Positions 31,132 through 37,993 of a DNA stretch of 64,000 bases are shown piece by piece. Position numbers and translations under genes: made by a program. Within the stretch, counting starts at the first letter, position 1. The number at the start of each line of letters is the position of its first letter. The notes below the pieces were generated by a model, which worked only from the letters and a program-made list of their open reading frames with translations, made no database searches and was not told the DNA's origin. The DNA comes from Thioalkalivibrio paradoxus ARh 1 (lineage in GTDB: Bacteria > Pseudomonadota > Gammaproteobacteria > Ectothiorhodospirales > Ectothiorhodospiraceae): contig NZ_CP007029.1 in NCBI RefSeq assembly GCF_000227685.2, forward strand, positions 1,648,501-1,712,500, read 5' to 3'.

Positions 31132-31917
31132 ATGGTACAGCACGACTGGCAGACCGGGTTCGGGATCCTTCGCTCGCTGGTGATCTACTGGCGACCTGGG
31201 CGGCAGCGTTCGTTGCGCCGTCTCTACCGGCCGTTCGTGCCGTCGGGCGGTCTGGTATTCGATATCGGCGCCCATCTCGGCGACCGCAGCCGCGCGTTCG
31301 CGGCTCTTGGGGCGCGCGTGGTCGCGCTGGAGCCGCAGCCGCATCTCCAGCGCTGGCTCAGGCGCTTCGCGGGTTCGCACCCGTCCGTTGTCGTTCGGCC
31401 GCAAGCGGTGGGCCGCGCTGCCGGGCAAATGCGGCTCGCGGTCAGCCGCCTGCACCCGACGGTATCGACGCTGTCGGCGGATTGGCAGCAAGGCCTCGGT
31501 CGTCGCAACCGCTCGTTCCGGCGCGTGTCCTGGGACCGGGTCGTCCCAGTCGAGGTCACGACTCTCGATGCCCTGATCGCCGAATACGGGGTGCCGGATT
31601 TCTGCAAGATCGACGTCGAAGGATTCGAGGCAGAGGTGCTGGCGGGTCTCAGTCAGCCCTTGCCCGCAGTATCGCTGGAGTTCGTTTCCGGTGCCATCGA
31701 CGTCACCCAGGCCTGTGTGCACCGGCTTTCCGAGCTCGGTACCTATGCGTTCAACGCGATTCCTGGCGAGCGGCGCGAATACGTGTTTCCCGAGTGGCAG
31801 CCGCCGGCTGCGCTGTCGGCGTGGCTGGACGCCGGTGCAGGGGGCATCGCGTCCGGAGATCTTTATGCTCGGCTGCAGCCCGAGGATCCCGGCAACTGTC
31901 CCGGACACGGCGCTTGA
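31132..31917 (+). CDS. FkbM-family SAM-dependent methyltransferase
   Basis: A 261-residue methyltransferase of the FkbM type. The SAM-binding motif I is VFDIGAHLGDRS near residue 42. ALEPQPHLQRWL follows as motif II, and the FkbM signature is TLDALIAEYGVPDFCKIDVEGFEAEVL. Family members methylate sugars and natural-product hydroxyls. No strong ribosome site precedes the ATG at 31132, so the exact start is less certain. It is 53 bases after galU and 31 before the creatininase-family gene, consistent with one transcript. Confidence 0.85.
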   Translation: MVQHDWQTGFGILRSLVIYWRPGRQRSLRRLYRPFVPSGGLVFDIGAHLGDRSRAFAALGARVVALEPQPHLQRWLRRFAGSHPSVVVRPQAVGRAAGQMRLAVSRLHPTVSTLSADWQQGLGRRNRSFRRVSWDRVVPVEVTTLDALIAEYGVPDFCKIDVEGFEAEVLAGLSQPLPAVSLEFVSGAIDVTQACVHRLSELGTYAFNAIPGERREYVFPEWQPPAALSAWLDAGAGGIASGDLYARLQPEDPGNCPGHGA

Positions 31918-31948
31918 CACCGCGGCATCGTGGCCGAACCATGCGCGG

Positions 31949-32761
31949 ATGACGCCGACCGGATTTCCGCTCTGGCAGCAGATGACCAGCCCCGAGATCG
32001 CCGCGGCCGTCGCGCAGGATCCGGTCGTGATCCTGCCGTTGGCGGCGATCGAGCAGCATGGTCCGCAACTGCCGCTCTCGACCGATCTCGACATCGGGCT
32101 CGGGTTGCTGAATGCCGCGGCGGCCGCTCTCGGTGATGATGTGGCGGTCTGGGTTCTGCCGCCGTTGGCGGTCGGCACCAGCATGGAACACGATGGCTTC
32201 CCGGGAACGCTGAGTCTGGAACCCGAGACCGCGCTTGCGGTGATCGGGCAGTACGGGGCAGCCGTGGCCGGGAACGGGGTGCGCCGGCTGCTGCTCTGGA
32301 ACAGCCATGGCGGCAATTCCCAGGTGATGGACCTCGCGGCGCTTCGGCTGCGCCGCGACCATGGCCTGCTGGTCGTCAAGTGCAGTTATTTCCGCCTCGG
32401 GTATCCGGACGGGATCGGCCTGCCCGAGTCCGAACTCCGGCACGGGTGGCACGGAGGGGCGGTCGAGACTGCGATGATGCAGCACCTCGCACCGGATTCG
32501 GTGCGGCCGGAACCCGATCGAGACTCCGGATCGCTTGGCGAACAGCTCGAGCGCCAGTTCGAGCTGCTGGGCCCGGAAGGGACGGCCTCGTTTGCCTGGC
32601 TCGCGCGCGATTTGCACGGTTCGGGTGTGGTGGGCGACGCGCGCACGGCCAACGCCGCTCTGGGTGCGCGGCTCGTCGCGTACTACGGCGATGCGCTCGC
32701 ACGCGTGATCCGCGAAACCCGGGCGTTTCCGCTGGGTGCGTTGCGGACGCCGGCCACGTGA
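31949..32761 (+). CDS. Creatininase-family amidohydrolase
   Basis: A 270-residue metal-dependent amidohydrolase. The predicted metal ligands are all visible: Glu35 and His37 in AAIEQHGPQLP, Asp46 in LSTDLDIG, His120 in NSHGGN and Glu173 in GGAVETAMM. The family includes creatininase, the archaeal ArfB deformylase (which acts on a GTP-derived formamidopyrimidine in riboflavin and F420 synthesis) and the mycofactocin peptidase MftE. Location directly before a RibD-like reductase suggests an ArfB-like or related amide hydrolysis on a pyrimidine or pterin intermediate. This is inferred from context only. Confidence 0.85.
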   Translation: MTPTGFPLWQQMTSPEIAAAVAQDPVVILPLAAIEQHGPQLPLSTDLDIGLGLLNAAAAALGDDVAVWVLPPLAVGTSMEHDGFPGTLSLEPETALAVIGQYGAAVAGNGVRRLLLWNSHGGNSQVMDLAALRLRRDHGLLVVKCSYFRLGYPDGIGLPESELRHGWHGGAVETAMMQHLAPDSVRPEPDRDSGSLGEQLERQFELLGPEGTASFAWLARDLHGSGVVGDARTANAALGARLVAYYGDALARVIRETRAFPLGALRTPAT

Positions 32762-32831
32762 ACCTGCGTGCCGTTGCGTTCCACCCGCGGCGGAGCGGGA
32801 GCGCGCCCCCCGGGCTGGCCGGCGCGTGCGG

Positions 32832-33620
32832 ATGAACACCAAGTCGCTTGAAGAGGCCGCCTGGCGGGCGATCCTGGACCACGTGCCCGGGCGCGCGGGG
32901 CAGCGGGTCGGTCCCGCGAGTGCCAGTGCACATCCCGAATCCGGGACGCTATGGCAGATCTATTCTCCGCTGGTGGCCTCCGACTGGCTGGTGATCGCGC
33001 AGTTGGGACAGACCCTGGACGGATTTATCGCGACACGCACCGGGCATTCCCGATACGTGACTGGGCCCGAGGATATCCGCCACCTGCACCGGCTGCGGGC
33101 ACTGGTGGATGCGGTGGTCGTCGGTGCCGGAACGGTCGTGGCGGACGATCCGCTACTGACTGTGCGGGAGGTGGTTGGACCGAACCCGGTACGAGTCATC
33201 GTGGATCCGTCCGGCCGCGTGGATCCGCGCGCCCGGGTATTCCGGAACACAGATGCTCGAACGCTGTGGCTGCGCAGTGCGCAGCGCCCGATGCCGGCGC
33301 CAGTACCGCCGCCGGTGGAGGTAGTCGCGCTGGAGGAACGGGAACAGGGTGGGTTTGCGCCCGTGGACATCCTGCGACTGCTGGCCGCGCGCGGGTTGTC
33401 GCGGGTGCTGGTCGAGGGCGGTGGCATCACCGTTTCGCGGTTTCTCGCAGCCGGGGTGCTCGACCGGCTGCATGTCACCGTGGCGCCGATGGTGCTGGGT
33501 TCCGGCCGGGCTTCCCTGACCCTGCCGCCTGTGGATCGCCTCGATCAGGCGCTGCGCCTGCGCTGCCGTCATTTCCTGCTTGGCGACGACATGCTGTTCG
33601 ACCTCGAGCTGCATTCGTGA
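32832..33620 (+). CDS. RibD C-terminal-domain (dihydrofolate-reductase-fold) reductase
   Basis: A 262-residue protein with a stand-alone RibD reductase domain and no cytidine-deaminase-type domain. Motifs: LGQTLDGFIATRTGHS (about 58-73), VVVGAGTVVADDPLLT (about 95-110), a VDPSGRVDPRARVF strand, and RVLVEGGGITVSRFL (about 198), the NADPH-binding element. About 50 N-terminal residues are an extra segment without a recognised domain. Relatives (bacterial RibD, yeast RIB7, archaeal ArfC) reduce the ribosyl side chain of a diaminopyrimidine. It lies 70 bases after the creatininase-family gene. Confidence 0.85.
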   Translation: MNTKSLEEAAWRAILDHVPGRAGQRVGPASASAHPESGTLWQIYSPLVASDWLVIAQLGQTLDGFIATRTGHSRYVTGPEDIRHLHRLRALVDAVVVGAGTVVADDPLLTVREVVGPNPVRVIVDPSGRVDPRARVFRNTDARTLWLRSAQRPMPAPVPPPVEVVALEEREQGGFAPVDILRLLAARGLSRVLVEGGGITVSRFLAAGVLDRLHVTVAPMVLGSGRASLTLPPVDRLDQALRLRCRHFLLGDDMLFDLELHS

Positions 33621-33704
33621 CTGCAGCGATTTCGTCAAGACGCTGCAGCGTACCTGCGCAGGGGATACGGTACGCCTCCGGTCTCCGGGAAAACCTTGGC
33701 GGGA

Positions 33705-34514
33705 TCAGGCCGCGACCGGGGGCAGCGCCAGCAGATCCAGGTGGCCGACGCGAAGGCGAACCCGTCCGGAGCCGACATCGCGTTCCCGCCGCTGCGCCCA
33801 TGCACGGTAGCGGTCGCGATCGGCGGGAACCTGCTCGCAGGCGGCCGCCATCCAGCCGCGGATCAGCGCGCCTGCCAGCTGTTCGCTGTCGTTGCCGAGG
33901 TCCCAGGGGCTCTGCGCCGTCAAGACGTGGAAGCCGGCACTCCTGAAGCGTGCCGCGGCGTAGGCCGCCGCATCGGGGCCCAGTGCCGGGCCCAGGCCTT
34001 TGTCGCGCTGCTGATGCGCGTTCACGGCCCTTCGTACCGCGCGGTCGTCGGGATCGGGCGGCGACCCATGCAGGCGACCGTCGTAGCTGAGCGCAAACAG
34101 GGCCGCGGCGCCCAGTTCGCGGCAGCCCTGAACCAGACCGTCAACCCAGGCCGCTCCAGCGAGATCCAGCAGCGCGGCGGCGGTGACGAGATCCGGTGGC
34201 CCCGATTTGGCCAGCACATCACGCCACTGCTGCAGGTCGATGCAAACGCGGCGCACGGTGGGTCCTGGGTCCGGGAGATGCACCCGCGCGAGCAGCGCTG
34301 CGTCGTGGTCGATCAGCGTCCAGTGCTGCGGTACCGGCAGCCGTGGGGCGAGAAAACGCAGATTGGCACCGGTACCCGCTCCCAGATCCACCACGTTCAG
34401 GGCGTCGCGGCCCCGGCTCCAGCGCCGGACTTCGGCGACCAGTCTGGCCGAGCGTGCGCGTCGGTCCGCGGGTTCGCGCAGGGACAGCCACTCTGCGGCG
34501 AACCGGCCGCTCAC
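33705..34514 (-). CDS. Class I SAM-dependent methyltransferase
   Basis: A 269-residue Rossmann-type methyltransferase. Motif I is NVVDLGAGTGANLRFLAP near residue 40, followed by an acidic strand end (TLIDHDAALL) and a motif IV-like PPDLVTAAALLDL. The substrate is unknown. The start is GTG at 34514, in a GTGA overlap with the stop of the upstream glycosyltransferase, so the two are translationally coupled. It is the last gene of a four-gene minus-strand unit and is convergent with the RibD-like gene, with 84 bases between them. Confidence 0.82.
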   Translation of the reverse strand: MSGRFAAEWLSLREPADRRARSARLVAEVRRWSRGRDALNVVDLGAGTGANLRFLAPRLPVPQHWTLIDHDAALLARVHLPDPGPTVRRVCIDLQQWRDVLAKSGPPDLVTAAALLDLAGAAWVDGLVQGCRELGAAALFALSYDGRLHGSPPDPDDRAVRRAVNAHQQRDKGLGPALGPDAAAYAAARFRSAGFHVLTAQSPWDLGNDSEQLAGALIRGWMAAACEQVPADRDRYRAWAQRRERDVGSGRVRLRVGHLDLLALPPVAA

Positions 34515-35578
34515 GGTCGCGTCAACTCCAGCACCGCAGACGCCAGTTGTTGCGCGGCCGCCGGCCAGTCGGCCAGCGTACGGGCATGGTGCCGGCCGGC
34601 CTGGCCGAGACGAGCGCGGGCTGCCGGATCCTGCAGGAGCCGGGCGAGGGCCTGTATCAGCGCCTCGATGTCGCCCGGGGCGACCAGGATCCCGGCCTGT
34701 CGCGGAACCGTATCCGGGATCGCGCCCGCGCGGGTGCCGATCACCGGCAGGCCATGTGCCATCGCCTCGGCAAAGGCCATGCCGTAGCCCTCATGCCACG
34801 AGGGCAGCGCAAACAGCTGGGACGAACGGTAGAGATGGTTGAGGCGTGCGGACGTGCATTCCCCAGCGAGCTGCACCCGATCGGCGATTCCGGCCGTGCG
34901 GATCTGTTCCCGTACCTGCCGCACATGATTCGGATGTCGCGCCAGACTCCCGGCGATCACACAGTGCCAGGGGATGCTGCGCAGCGTGGCCAGCGCACGC
35001 ACCAGAAGATCCTGGCCCTTGCGGGGGGTTACCGCGCCGACGCAGAGGATGCGCGGGGGCGCGGCAGGATCCGGGGCCGCCGCAGTGATCGCGGTTGCGG
35101 TTCCGGGAAGCACACAGCGGATACCGATCCGGTCCGGTATCCAGTCCCGCAGCCGGCGCGCGGTATGAGGGCTGGTGACGATCACGCCGCGGCAGTGGGC
35201 AAGGGCGCGGCGCTCGAGCGCCTCCAACGCTGCGGCGCGCGCGGCCGACAATCCGGTTTCGTCGCGCAGCGGATGGTGCACCAGGGCAATCGGTTGCAGC
35301 CTGGATGCGTGCGCCGCCAGCGGGTCGGGCAGACCTCCGAGCGCCAGTCCGTCGATCAGTACCCGCGCGCGATCGGGCAGCGCCGCGAGGAGCCGGGATA
35401 GCGCCTGTTCCGCCTCGGGGTCCGGACCGGGGAAACGCCCGCCAAGGCTGTGAACGACGATGTGCCAGCCGAGTGCACGCAGCCCGTCTGCCATGCGTGC
35501 ATCGTACAGGTAGCCACCGGTCCGCTGGTCCAGGCGGCCGGGAACCACCAAGTGCAGGGTCGGCGCAGCCGGTGTCAA
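34511..35578 (-). CDS. Family 4 glycosyltransferase
   Basis: A 355-residue GT-B glycosyltransferase of family GT4. The N-terminal [14 protein letters not shown] resembles the acceptor loop. The C-terminal donor domain has [18 protein letters not shown] and the E-x7-E nucleotide-sugar motif [18 protein letters not shown]. The likely start is TTG at 35578, overlapping the PTPS-like stop as TTGA; no ATG gives a full N-terminus. The sugar and acceptor are unknown. Coupling to a pterin-synthase-like gene suggests that the product of that pathway is glycosylated. Confidence 0.84.
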
Positions 35579-35973
35579 AGGGGCGCTTCGAAACTGGCCC
35601 AGGCGACGTGGGATTCGTGCAGCGTGACGCAGAGCGCGTCGAGCCCCGGCGCGGACGGGCCGAGCTTGCCACGCTGGATCGCGTCCGCAAGGCGCTGATG
35701 GATCTCGCGAGCCAGAAACTCGGTGGTGGTGTTGTGCCCCTCGAACTCCGGGTGATCGTCCAGGTTCTGATAGTTCATCCCGGCCAGCACTGCACTCAGC
35801 TGGGCCGTCGCCAGAGCGATGTCGACCACCACTCCGTCGGCGTCGAGTTCCCGGCGGCGGAAAGTCGCGTCGACGACGTAAGTTGCGCCGTGGAGCCGCT
35901 GCGCGGGTCCGAACGCCTCGCCGGTGAAGCTGTGGGCAATCATGAAATGGTCACGGACGTTCACGCTGTACAT
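35575..35973 (-). CDS. 6-pyruvoyl-tetrahydropterin synthase / QueD-like protein with altered active site
   Basis: A 132-residue PTPS/QueD-fold protein, about the normal family length. Recognised parts are [12 protein letters not shown] (first zinc His, His14), [13 protein letters not shown], a [11 protein letters not shown] strand, [22 protein letters not shown] and the C-terminal [14 protein letters not shown] with the conserved Glu. Two key features differ. The usual HGH zinc motif reads H28-G-A30, and no Cys precedes it where the catalytic Cys normally sits (the segment is FGPAQRL). It is therefore unlikely to be a standard QueD or PTPS. The gene is 109 bases downstream of the dehydrogenase gene and coupled to the glycosyltransferase. 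Confidence 0.83.
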
Positions 35974-36082
35974 AAGGCCTCCTTGGGGCCGACCGGGAAA
36001 CGGGAAGACGATCGACGAAAGCGAGACCGGCAGCAGGTGCCATGGTTCCGCCGGCTACGCGGCCGCAGCAGGACGCCCGGGT

Positions 36083-37066
36083 TCATGGATACCGCACCCG
36101 GTGGCAGAGCGTATCGCCGGGATCCGCAGCGAGCCGCGCCATCACCTGTGGCAGATCCGCGAAGATGTCCTCGCCGGTCACCAGCCGGTCGAGGCGATCG
36201 TCGCGCAGCAACTCGAGTGCCAGACGCATCCGTCGGGCATGATCCCAGCGTGGGGCGCGTGCGGCCGGGATCCGGCCGACCTGACTGCTGCGCAGCGTCA
36301 GCCGCCGGGAATGAAAGGCCTCGCCGAGTGGCAGGGATACCATGCGGTCGCCGTACCAGCTGAGCTCTACCACGGTGGCCTCGACAGCAGCCGCGCGCAG
36401 CGCCTGGACCAGCCCCTCCGGATGCCCGCTGGCGTGGATCACCAGGTCGGCGTTCATCTCGTCGACCGGCGCGTCCCGAAACTCGAGGCCCAGGGCCATC
36501 GCAACCGGGCCTCGCCGCGGTTGGGTATCCACCAGCGTGACTTCGGTTCCGGGAACACGGCTGCAGAGCCATGCGGTCAACAGCCCCAGAACCCCGCCGC
36601 CGATCACCAGGATGCGGTCTCCGGCCAGTGGAGCCGCGTCCCAGCATGCATTGACCGCAGTCTCCATGTTCGCGGCCAGTACGGCACGTTCCGGAGGCAG
36701 TCCCTCGGGCAGCGGCGTTGCCGCAGTCCCCGGGACCCGGTACAGATCTTGGTGCGGGTACAGGCAGAAGACGTGTTGTCCGATACGTTCGGCCGGGCCG
36801 TCCTCGATCCGCCCGACGTTGATGTAGCCGTACTTGACGGGGCCGGGAAACTCGCCCGCCTGGAACGGCGCCCGCATCGCGGTTTGCTGACTCGCGGGAA
36901 CGCGTCCGGTGAATACCAGCGCCTCGGTACCACGGCTGACCCCGGAGAAGAGCGCGCGAACCAGCACGTCGCCCGGCTTGCGATCCGGAAGCGGCTCCTC
37001 GCGCAGTTCGCCGCGACCGGGGGCGAGCACCCAGAAGGCTCTTGCGGTGTTTGGGGCGGAGTGCAT
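36083..37066 (-). CDS. MDR-family (BchC-like) dehydrogenase
   Basis: A 327-residue medium-chain dehydrogenase. The N-terminal half has SGVSRGTEALVFTGRVP and MRAPFQAGEFPGPVKYGY, features also seen in bacteriochlorophyllide dehydrogenase BchC and related enzymes. The cofactor domain has LVIGGGVLGLLTAWL followed by a strand ending in VDTQ. The classical GHE zinc motif is absent. The ATG at 37066 with GGGAAA upstream is preferred over 37093. It is the first gene of the minus-strand unit, divergent from the phosphatidyltransferase gene. Its substrate is unknown; oxidation of a hydroxyalkyl side chain would fit the family. Confidence 0.82.
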   Translation of the reverse strand: MHSAPNTARAFWVLAPGRGELREEPLPDRKPGDVLVRALFSGVSRGTEALVFTGRVPASQQTAMRAPFQAGEFPGPVKYGYINVGRIEDGPAERIGQHVFCLYPHQDLYRVPGTAATPLPEGLPPERAVLAANMETAVNACWDAAPLAGDRILVIGGGVLGLLTAWLCSRVPGTEVTLVDTQPRRGPVAMALGLEFRDAPVDEMNADLVIHASGHPEGLVQALRAAAVEATVVELSWYGDRMVSLPLGEAFHSRRLTLRSSQVGRIPAARAPRWDHARRMRLALELLRDDRLDRLVTGEDIFADLPQVMARLAADPGDTLCHRVRYP

Positions 37067-37216
37067 CGGGTTTCCCAGGATGCCTGAGGTCATTGAATGG
37101 TAATCGGCGCTGCTGCAGCGCGCCAGCAAACCAATCGGACGCGCAAGGGTCGAAACCGACGAACGAGTCCCAACGCTCCGCGCATCGGCCGGCGCGTTCT
37201 GCGTGCCCTGGAGCCC

Positions 37217-37993
37217 ATGACCGCATCCACCGACCACGAGTTTCCAGCGACACCGTGGCAGAGGCTTCCCGCACAGGCGAGCGTCTGGCGCCTGCAGCTG
37301 GCGATCGGTTTCCTGGCCTGCTGGGGAATCGCGGCGCTGCTGGTGCACGTCGCGGGCATGCCGGTGGCGGTCGTTGCGTATTCGCTGTTTGCGTACGCGC
37401 TGCTGGCGGGCGGGCTGCTGTACCGCTCGCCGCCTGCCTTCCTGCGGCAGGGCCCGGGGGCGGCCAACGGCATCACGCTACTGCGTGCCGCGCTGGCTAT
37501 ACCGATCTCGATCGTGGCGCTGCATCCCGGCGACTGGGATGCGATCGTCACGATCTGGCTGATCGGCGTCTCGGCCATGGTCGTAACGCTGGACGCGGTC
37601 GATGGAGCTGTCGCCCGCCGGACCCGGCGCACGAGTGAATTCGGTGCCCGCTTCGATATGGAGGTGGACGCGTGGCTGATCCTGATGCTTTCCCTGCTCG
37701 TCTGGCGTACCGGGCAGGCTGGCGCCTGGGTATTGCTGATCGGCATGCTGCGCTACGCTTTTGTTGCAGCTGGCTGGTACTGGACCTGGCTGAACAAGAC
37801 ACTGCCGCCGAGTCGCCGCCGCCAGTCGGTCTGCGTGCTTCAGTCCCTGGCTCTACTGGCGGCCCTCGTGCCGATGATGTCTCCGATGGCCGCCAGCATC
37901 GTGGTTCTGGCGGCCTTGGTCTTGCTGAGCTACTCGTTCGCCGTCGATGTGCTGTGGCTGTACCGCCACGCCGACGGCGCCAGGATGCGGTAG
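37217..37993 (+). CDS. CDP-alcohol phosphatidyltransferase family membrane protein
   Basis: A 258-residue polytopic membrane enzyme. The full CDP-OH-P motif DxxDGxxARx8Gx3Dx3D is present (DAVDGAVARR through to DMEVD, about residues 125-150). About six membrane helices surround it. Family members transfer a phospho-alcohol from a CDP-linked donor, as in phosphatidylglycerol, cardiolipin or phosphatidylinositol synthesis. The start at 37217 (MTASTDHEF) is preceded by CTGGAG; an in-frame ATG at 37097 adds a basic leader and is rejected. It diverges from the BchC-like dehydrogenase, sharing an approximately 150-base promoter region. Confidence 0.86.
   Translation: MTASTDHEFPATPWQRLPAQASVWRLQLAIGFLACWGIAALLVHVAGMPVAVVAYSLFAYALLAGGLLYRSPPAFLRQGPGAANGITLLRAALAIPISIVALHPGDWDAIVTIWLIGVSAMVVTLDAVDGAVARRTRRTSEFGARFDMEVDAWLILMLSLLVWRTGQAGAWVLLIGMLRYAFVAAGWYWTWLNKTLPPSRRRQSVCVLQSLALLAALVPMMSPMAASIVVLAALVLLSYSFAVDVLWLYRHADGARMR

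Follow-up and report, generated by a model that had tools for sequence, protein, structure and literature searches.

A block of eight genes in Thioalkalivibrio paradoxus ARh 1 belongs to a gene cluster that recurs in four bacterial phyla around an altered relative of 6-pyruvoyltetrahydropterin synthase (PTPS). It lies at positions 31132-37993 of the window, by which we mean the whole stretch of 64,000 nucleotides analyzed (1648501-1712500 of the 3.76 Mb single-contig genome). A sequence-only reading had recognized eight families there, namely a creatininase-family amidohydrolase, a stand-alone RibD_C reductase, a PTPS-like protein, two methyltransferases, a GT4 glycosyltransferase, a dehydrogenase and a CDP-alcohol phosphatidyltransferase, and domain searches confirmed them all. 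Gene content and linkage are conserved, the PTPS-like protein has lost catalytic residues of its family, and motifs of its partner enzymes are intact. What we infer from this, tentatively and with a probability of roughly 0.4, are the reactions, their order, a lipid link and the product, which would be a GTP-derived pyrimidine or pterin core that is oxidized, methylated, glycosylated and lipid-linked.

In the proposed pathway, GTP cyclohydrolase II (GCH II) would open GTP to a diaminopyrimidine ribosyl phosphate, and the substrate of the RibD_C reductase would be this diaminopyrimidine or a pterin derived from it. Any formyl or other amide group still present would be taken off by the creatininase-family enzyme, and the PTPS-like protein would bind a pterin-like intermediate, with chemistry other than that of PTPS. 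The core would be oxidized by the dehydrogenase, methylated by the methyltransferase and glycosylated by the GT4 enzyme. Attachment of a phosphatidyl group to an alcohol of the product could fall to the CDP-alcohol transferase, and most relatives encode a membrane protein, of family PF03706, that might carry the product across the membrane.

Conservation and linkage of the cluster

Neighborhoods of the PTPS-like gene were compared in 92 loci: that of the window, 11 found by searching its class and 80 from named genomes, these being the best 80 of at least 585 relatives that a pattern scan detected among 596 stretches. According to labels assigned by hand from record titles, with eleven genomes labeled by class, the loci belong to Proteobacteria, Actinobacteria, Gemmatimonadota and Acidobacteria. 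Members were counted within 8 kb in the 70 full loci, which extend 7 kb or more to either side of the PTPS-like gene; as the counting profiles come from the same loci, picked as the best 80 among 585 or more PTPS matches, distant members are under-represented. The GT4 and methyltransferase genes are present in 70/70 full loci each and the dehydrogenase in 69/70, followed by the CDP-alcohol transferase (64/70), the PF03706 membrane protein (56/70), GCH II (46/70), RibD_C (44/70) and the creatininase-family gene (41/70). A sulfatase or lipoteichoic acid (LTA) synthase-like gene occurs in 18/70, and YceI and FkbM in 11/70 each.

Co-occurrence, a check named in the sequence-only reading, extends to many genomes of four phyla and well beyond close relatives, but the eight families do not always travel together. 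Nearly invariant is a core of dehydrogenase, PTPS-like protein, GT4 enzyme and methyltransferase, the creatininase-family gene is variable, and FkbM is peripheral as well as variable. Nor were the eight complete, since the PF03706 protein also belongs to the cluster, though it is missing from the block in the window.

A control on linkage compared genes within 5 kb of the PTPS-like gene (near) with those at 5-10 kb (far) in the 58 loci that extend 9.9 kb or more in each direction. Near versus far counts were 58 versus 0 for the dehydrogenase, 58 versus 1 for GT4, 58 versus 0 for the methyltransferase, 52 versus 1 for the CDP-alcohol transferase, 47 versus 0 for PF03706, 6 versus 0 for YceI, 32 versus 2 for RibD_C and 34 versus 4 for the creatininase-family gene. 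For GCH II (29 versus 12), FkbM (3 versus 8) and the sulfatase-like gene (10 versus 7) we read the distribution as that of outer-edge members, which this control alone does not tie in. The grouping as a whole is far beyond chance.

Genome-wide profiles point the same way. Of 274 genomes of the class, 12 encode the PTPS-like protein (E value 1e-15). In 274 drawn in like manner, RibD_C (E 1e-30) occurs in 11 of these 12 and in none of the 262 others; the twelfth genome, G255, has a weaker RibD_C match within its locus. The dehydrogenase (E 1e-40) occurs in 14 of the 274, that is in all 12 with the PTPS-like gene and in two others. Co-occurrence is kept even where RibD_C lies on another contig (G223 and G068, the latter with its dehydrogenase there too); Fisher values overstate the association in these profiles. 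That unrelated genes were merely assembled by chance in one lineage, with no pathway behind them, might be suggested by the GalU, ComEA and PyrF neighbors, which among the 92 loci accompany only close relatives. We regard this as extremely improbable: order and partners are the same in four phyla, and the near/far control together with the whole-genome profile rules it out.

Within the genus of the window, 28 of 30 genomes and 23 of the 23 high-quality ones carry the PTPS-like marker gene, and the cluster therefore looks core there and not like an occasional secondary metabolite. Two AT-rich genomes of 1.0-1.1 Mb also have the cluster, with PTPS identities of 37-44%. Their loci (L027, 5592-11901; L028, 4148-10286) are nearly complete, without a creatininase-family or GCH II gene nearby, and for such small genomes the cluster is strongly kept.

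A PTPS-like protein with replaced catalytic residues

The PTPS-like T-fold protein of the window (35575..35973, minus strand) matches PF01242 with 87.6 bits (cut-off 22.4) and is an orthologue of SCO6650 from Streptomyces coelicolor. A profile of 12 cluster sequences, searched against solved chains, matched the SCO6650 structure 3d7j with an E value of 2e-58 over 131 residues; the next chain was a putative PTPS, 2g64, at 8e-8. The window protein is of the SCO6650 type, with a close match to 3d7j and the same residue changes.

Catalytic columns were assigned from the alignment to 2g64, and we take their Cys, Asp and His residues to have the catalytic roles of PTPS. The Cys column holds Ala in 92/92 cluster sequences, and the second His of the HxH zinc-ligand motif is replaced by Ala in 91/92 and by Thr in 1/92. 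At the catalytic Asp column there are 81 Asn, 5 Thr, 5 Ser and a single Asp, and the catalytic His column has Tyr (75), Phe (9), Leu (6) or Met (2), with His in 0/92. Invariant in 92/92 are His14, His28, Asp72, Glu85 and Glu120, the last presumably the pterin-anchoring Glu of PTPS. The active site of SCO6650 is said, in papers of the Bandarian group, to be zinc-free.

The cluster proteins thus share the PF01242 T-fold family with PTPS and QueD, and Asp72 and Glu85 with 2g64; what sets practically all 92 apart is the replacement of the catalytic Cys, of one zinc His and of the Asp-His pair. Against the QueD equivalog TIGR03367 the window protein scores 42.1 bits, below the cut-off of 89.25. A second PTPS-family protein, encoded at 3009160 in the same genome, scores higher than the cluster protein and is taken to be the QueD of this genome. 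Family membership as first read is upheld, but a function as ordinary PTPS or QueD appears unlikely because the catalytic residues are replaced and the genome has this second gene.

GTP cyclohydrolase, creatininase-family enzyme and reductase

The sequence-only reading held that a GTP cyclohydrolase is missing from the window and would have to be elsewhere. This proved correct: the GCH II matches of the genome (1072221 and 1558829) and its GCH I match (869170) all lie outside the window, and many relatives, as counted above, have GCH II within the cluster. The riboflavin-operon match is a RibBA (L029, 115-1986) that reaches 68 in TIGR00505, where the cut-off is 205.85, but scores above the cut-off of a full-length bifunctional model; its RibA half seems degenerate, reading as devoid of the zinc Cys motifs. 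The enzyme at 1558829 has the HSxCLTGD and RCDCG motifs and a Tyr at the position of Escherichia coli Tyr105; it scores 176.2 in PRK00393, above the cut-off of 148, and 151.7 in TIGR00505, below the same 205.85. No other intact-looking GCH II was found in the genome, so the window pathway probably draws on this one, sharing it with riboflavin synthesis. Within L031, 7907-11045 (region 1550500-1570000), its gene reads as lying near a CbiM-like cobalt/nickel transporter gene, and it is away from the RibD and RibBA genes.

The Tyr105 column separates two kinds of cluster in Actinobacteria. Among 52 cluster GCH II sequences, Met or His at this column is confined to this phylum, where Met occurs 21 times, His 8 times and Tyr 13 times. 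Creatininase-family genes are present in 29/29 Met/His-type and 0/13 Tyr-type actinobacterial clusters, and RibD_C in 5/29 and 13/13. The link between Tyr105 and creatininase amounts to few evolutionary events, as 20/21 Met loci bear Streptomyces-type names (Streptomyces, Actinacidiphila) and 12/13 Tyr loci are Micromonosporaceae by name; the Fisher value from such related, non-independent groups is overstated. In SCO6655, a GCH II paralogue that we take to be a neighbor of SCO6650 in S. coelicolor, a Met at this position reportedly stops the reaction at the formyl-pyrimidine (again papers of the Bandarian group). We take Met as the mark of a GCH II that releases formyl-pyrimidine, and His by analogy; the intact-looking GCH II of the present genome, with its Tyr, is not of this type. 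Such a product would need a creatininase-type deformylase, and the correlation fits this route.

Some proteobacterial cluster GCH II proteins (L045, 14256-15419; L024, 3653-4960) begin with about 190-240 residues that match no Pfam family and may be a decayed RibB domain. In L045 the protein aligns along the RibA model PRK08815, below its cut-off.

The creatininase-family amidohydrolase of the window (31949..32761, plus strand; PF02633, 212 bits) has intact metal-ligand motifs, as do 47/47 cluster homologues when loose patterns are used. It falls below the cut-offs of the MftE, creatininase and IolN models and is proposed, from its family and motifs, to be a formamide or amide hydrolase. MftE of mycofactocin synthesis is its best-scoring curated model, at 116.7 bits against a cut-off of 172, and we know of no other cluster family in the mycofactocin pathway. 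The stand-alone reductase (32832..33620, plus strand; 262 residues) has PF01872 (141 bits) as its only Pfam match and is without a deaminase domain. Its closest solved chain is 6p8c, a 2,5-diamino-6-ribosylamino-4(3H)-pyrimidinone 5'-phosphate reductase, and it scores 113.8 bits in the archaeal reductase equivalog TIGR01508, below the cut-off of 186.45.

These two proteins invite comparison with ArfB and ArfC of archaeal riboflavin and F420 synthesis, which share the families of a creatininase-type hydrolase and a stand-alone RibD_C reductase. The archaeal route uses GTP cyclohydrolase III. The cluster has instead a bacterial GCH II along with GT4, methyltransferase and CDP-alcohol transferase genes, and its proteins stay below the curated ArfB and archaeal reductase cut-offs. 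In the ArfB model NF033501 (cut-off 180) the window protein gave no match at an E value of 0.01, and three relatives reached 40.5 (a Streptomyces protein), 34.6 and 19.2 bits, which rules out ArfB membership. A flavin-like or deazaflavin-like redox cofactor made by an ArfB/ArfC-like branch is thus improbable, even if the early archaeal steps are resembled by three of the cluster families, GCH II, creatininase and RibD_C. No lumazine- or deazaflavin-synthase-like gene was noticed by eye in the 30 largest extra families, with no dedicated search made, and a T-fold pterin binder is not known to act in that route.

Tailoring and membrane-associated genes

The dehydrogenase of the medium-chain dehydrogenase/reductase type (36083..37093, minus strand) had been called BchC-like; the resemblance is distant only, with 47.6 bits in TIGR01202 against a cut-off of 291.25. 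The GT4 gene (34511..35578, minus strand; PF00534, 115.6 bits) overlaps the PTPS-like gene by four bases (TTGA, 35575-35578) and the gene of the class I S-adenosylmethionine-dependent methyltransferase (33705..34514, minus strand) by another four (GTGA, 34511-34514). Translational coupling, earlier suggested for the minus-strand genes, applies to these three; the dehydrogenase gene ends 109 bases from the PTPS-like gene and falls outside it. The methyltransferase scores 25.8 bits in PF13649, slightly below the cut-off of 27. Its AlphaFold model (predicted local distance difference test score 95.7) retrieved general class I methyltransferases in Foldseek, with no substrate indicated.

A bolder version of the pathway would let RibD_C and the BchC-like dehydrogenase replace GTP cyclohydrolase I. 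RibD_C would reduce C1' of the ribosyl-diaminopyrimidine, the dehydrogenase would oxidize C2', and, on the altered PTPS-like protein, the 5-amino group would then complete a dihydropterin ring. Glycosylation, methylation and coupling to a phosphatidyl group would make of this pterin a membrane lipid with a pterin head, kept even by AT-rich genomes near 1 Mb in size. We give this version little credence; to our knowledge, no lipid of this kind is known from any source.

Divergent from the dehydrogenase gene lies that of the CDP-alcohol phosphatidyltransferase (plus strand; PF01066, 57.6 bits), which ends at 37993 and, as read from the sequence, probably starts at 37217. The motif of CDP-alcohol phosphatidyltransferases, DxxDGxxARx8-9GxxxDxxxD, is present in 78 of 81 cluster members including the window protein, which has it in full with eight spacer residues. 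In the exceptions the AR pair has Ser in place of Ala (L028), the spacer has seven residues (L067) or the gene is split over two frames (L087). In the close relatives L033, L034 and L035 a PF03706 gene stands between the methyltransferase and RibD_C genes; the corresponding site in the window, 33621-33704, comprises 84 bases, and the gene has apparently been lost or moved in this genome. A further large membrane protein, LTA-synthase-like, matches the Sulfatase family weakly (L037, 16451-18190, minus strand; L060, 6292-8133, minus strand). In the full loci its gene recurs next to the cluster in three phyla; the acidobacterial copies stand farther away or belong to truncated loci. The frequencies of PF03706, Sulfatase/LTA-synthase-like and YceI genes fit a membrane product.

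A soluble glycosylated and methylated pterin or pyrimidine, serving as cofactor or pigment, would place the CDP-alcohol transferase and PF03706 in a separate lipid step or in export. Cyanobacterial pterin glycosides are an example of a glycosylated pterin, and the near-invariant core is without a lipid enzyme; the CDP-alcohol transferase is missing from 6/70 full loci and PF03706 from 14/70. Against this stand the presence of the transferase in the other 64 full loci, spread over four phyla, its conserved active-site motif, and the Sulfatase-like and YceI genes, which strengthen the membrane theme. We judge a soluble product rather unlikely. A wall or lipid polymer of ribitol or ribityl phosphate, built from a ribityl group that the reductase would make and that the CDP-alcohol enzyme and the LTA-synthase-like one would hand to the polymer, might draw on the LTA-synthase/sulfatase-like genes of 18 full loci and on GT4 enzymes, which are common in such systems. 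It leaves unexplained both the PTPS-like protein, which every locus has because loci were chosen by it, and the Met/His-type GCH II. No cytidylyltransferase was noticed in the cluster, none having been searched for, and we consider this polymer very improbable.

Several observations weigh against the lipid-linked pyrimidine or pterin that we propose. RibD_C is absent from 24 of the 29 Met/His-type actinobacterial clusters, and the route is therefore not identical everywhere. Tyr-type clusters of Proteobacteria and Acidobacteria have RibD_C in 10/10 and creatininase in 8/10, the latter counter to a simple deformylase role; the enzyme may have another role there. Three of the 70 full loci (L018, L022 and L048) are without GCH II, RibD_C and creatininase within 8 kb, with RibD_C present elsewhere in the genome in L018 and L022. 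In G174 and G249, two genomes without the PTPS-like gene, the dehydrogenase search gave a match of 38% identity. To these add the six full loci that lack the CDP-alcohol transferase, the window block without PF03706, and the three PF03706 matches of its own genome, which are not similar to the cluster type.

The remaining gene of the block encodes the FkbM-family methyltransferase (31132..31917, plus strand), which exceeds the cut-offs of PF05050 (53.8 bits) and TIGR01444 (93.3).

Relation to known systems and spread

The window shares with Streptomyces loci the SCO6650-type protein and the same dehydrogenase, GT4, methyltransferase, CDP-alcohol transferase and creatininase; S. coelicolor itself is outside the sample. 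It differs in carrying RibD_C, which most Streptomyces loci lack, and in being without the PF03706 protein and Met-type GCH II of those clusters. A 2006 paper reportedly concerns GTP cyclohydrolase II proteins of S. coelicolor. The claim that no characterized pathway combines these families has to be qualified, since the Streptomyces version has already been studied in part, through 3d7j and the GCH II work. The cluster is therefore not without precedent; it is an orphan pathway to which the present gene set gives a new, wide definition that can be tested, and the original interpretation is partly supported. One further paper lists SCO6655 in a table of flux-anticorrelated genes. A literature search found no paper on the cluster, which is weak evidence of absence as most subscription papers fell outside its coverage. 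With the cluster so defined, an orphan structure (SCO6650) and an orphan type of GTP cyclohydrolase become parts of one pathway in at least four phyla. If a lipid-linked pterin is indeed made, it would be an overlooked redox-active or light-active membrane molecule in bacteria.

A FastTree phylogeny of joined PTPS-like, dehydrogenase and GT4 proteins (57 of 91 loci, midpoint root, several deep nodes weak) grouped the Thioalkalivibrio clusters with most of those from Gemmatimonadota and Acidobacteria (local support 0.88), away from Halomonas-type clusters; one acidobacterial locus, L065, fell elsewhere. This placement suggests transfer of the cluster between phyla. The closest named matches to the PTPS-like gene of the window, among the best 80 of at least 585 relatives, are four Thioalkalivibrio records. 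A pattern scan of viral contigs for a viral carrier gave 41 matches, none of them a relative. The GC content of the block is 0.67-0.71, close to the 0.64-0.69 of the flanks at 28-31 kb and 38-42 kb, with no clear composition island. In one genome a squalene/phytoene-synthase-like gene (PF00494; L024, 9346-10167, minus strand) adjoins the dehydrogenase gene.

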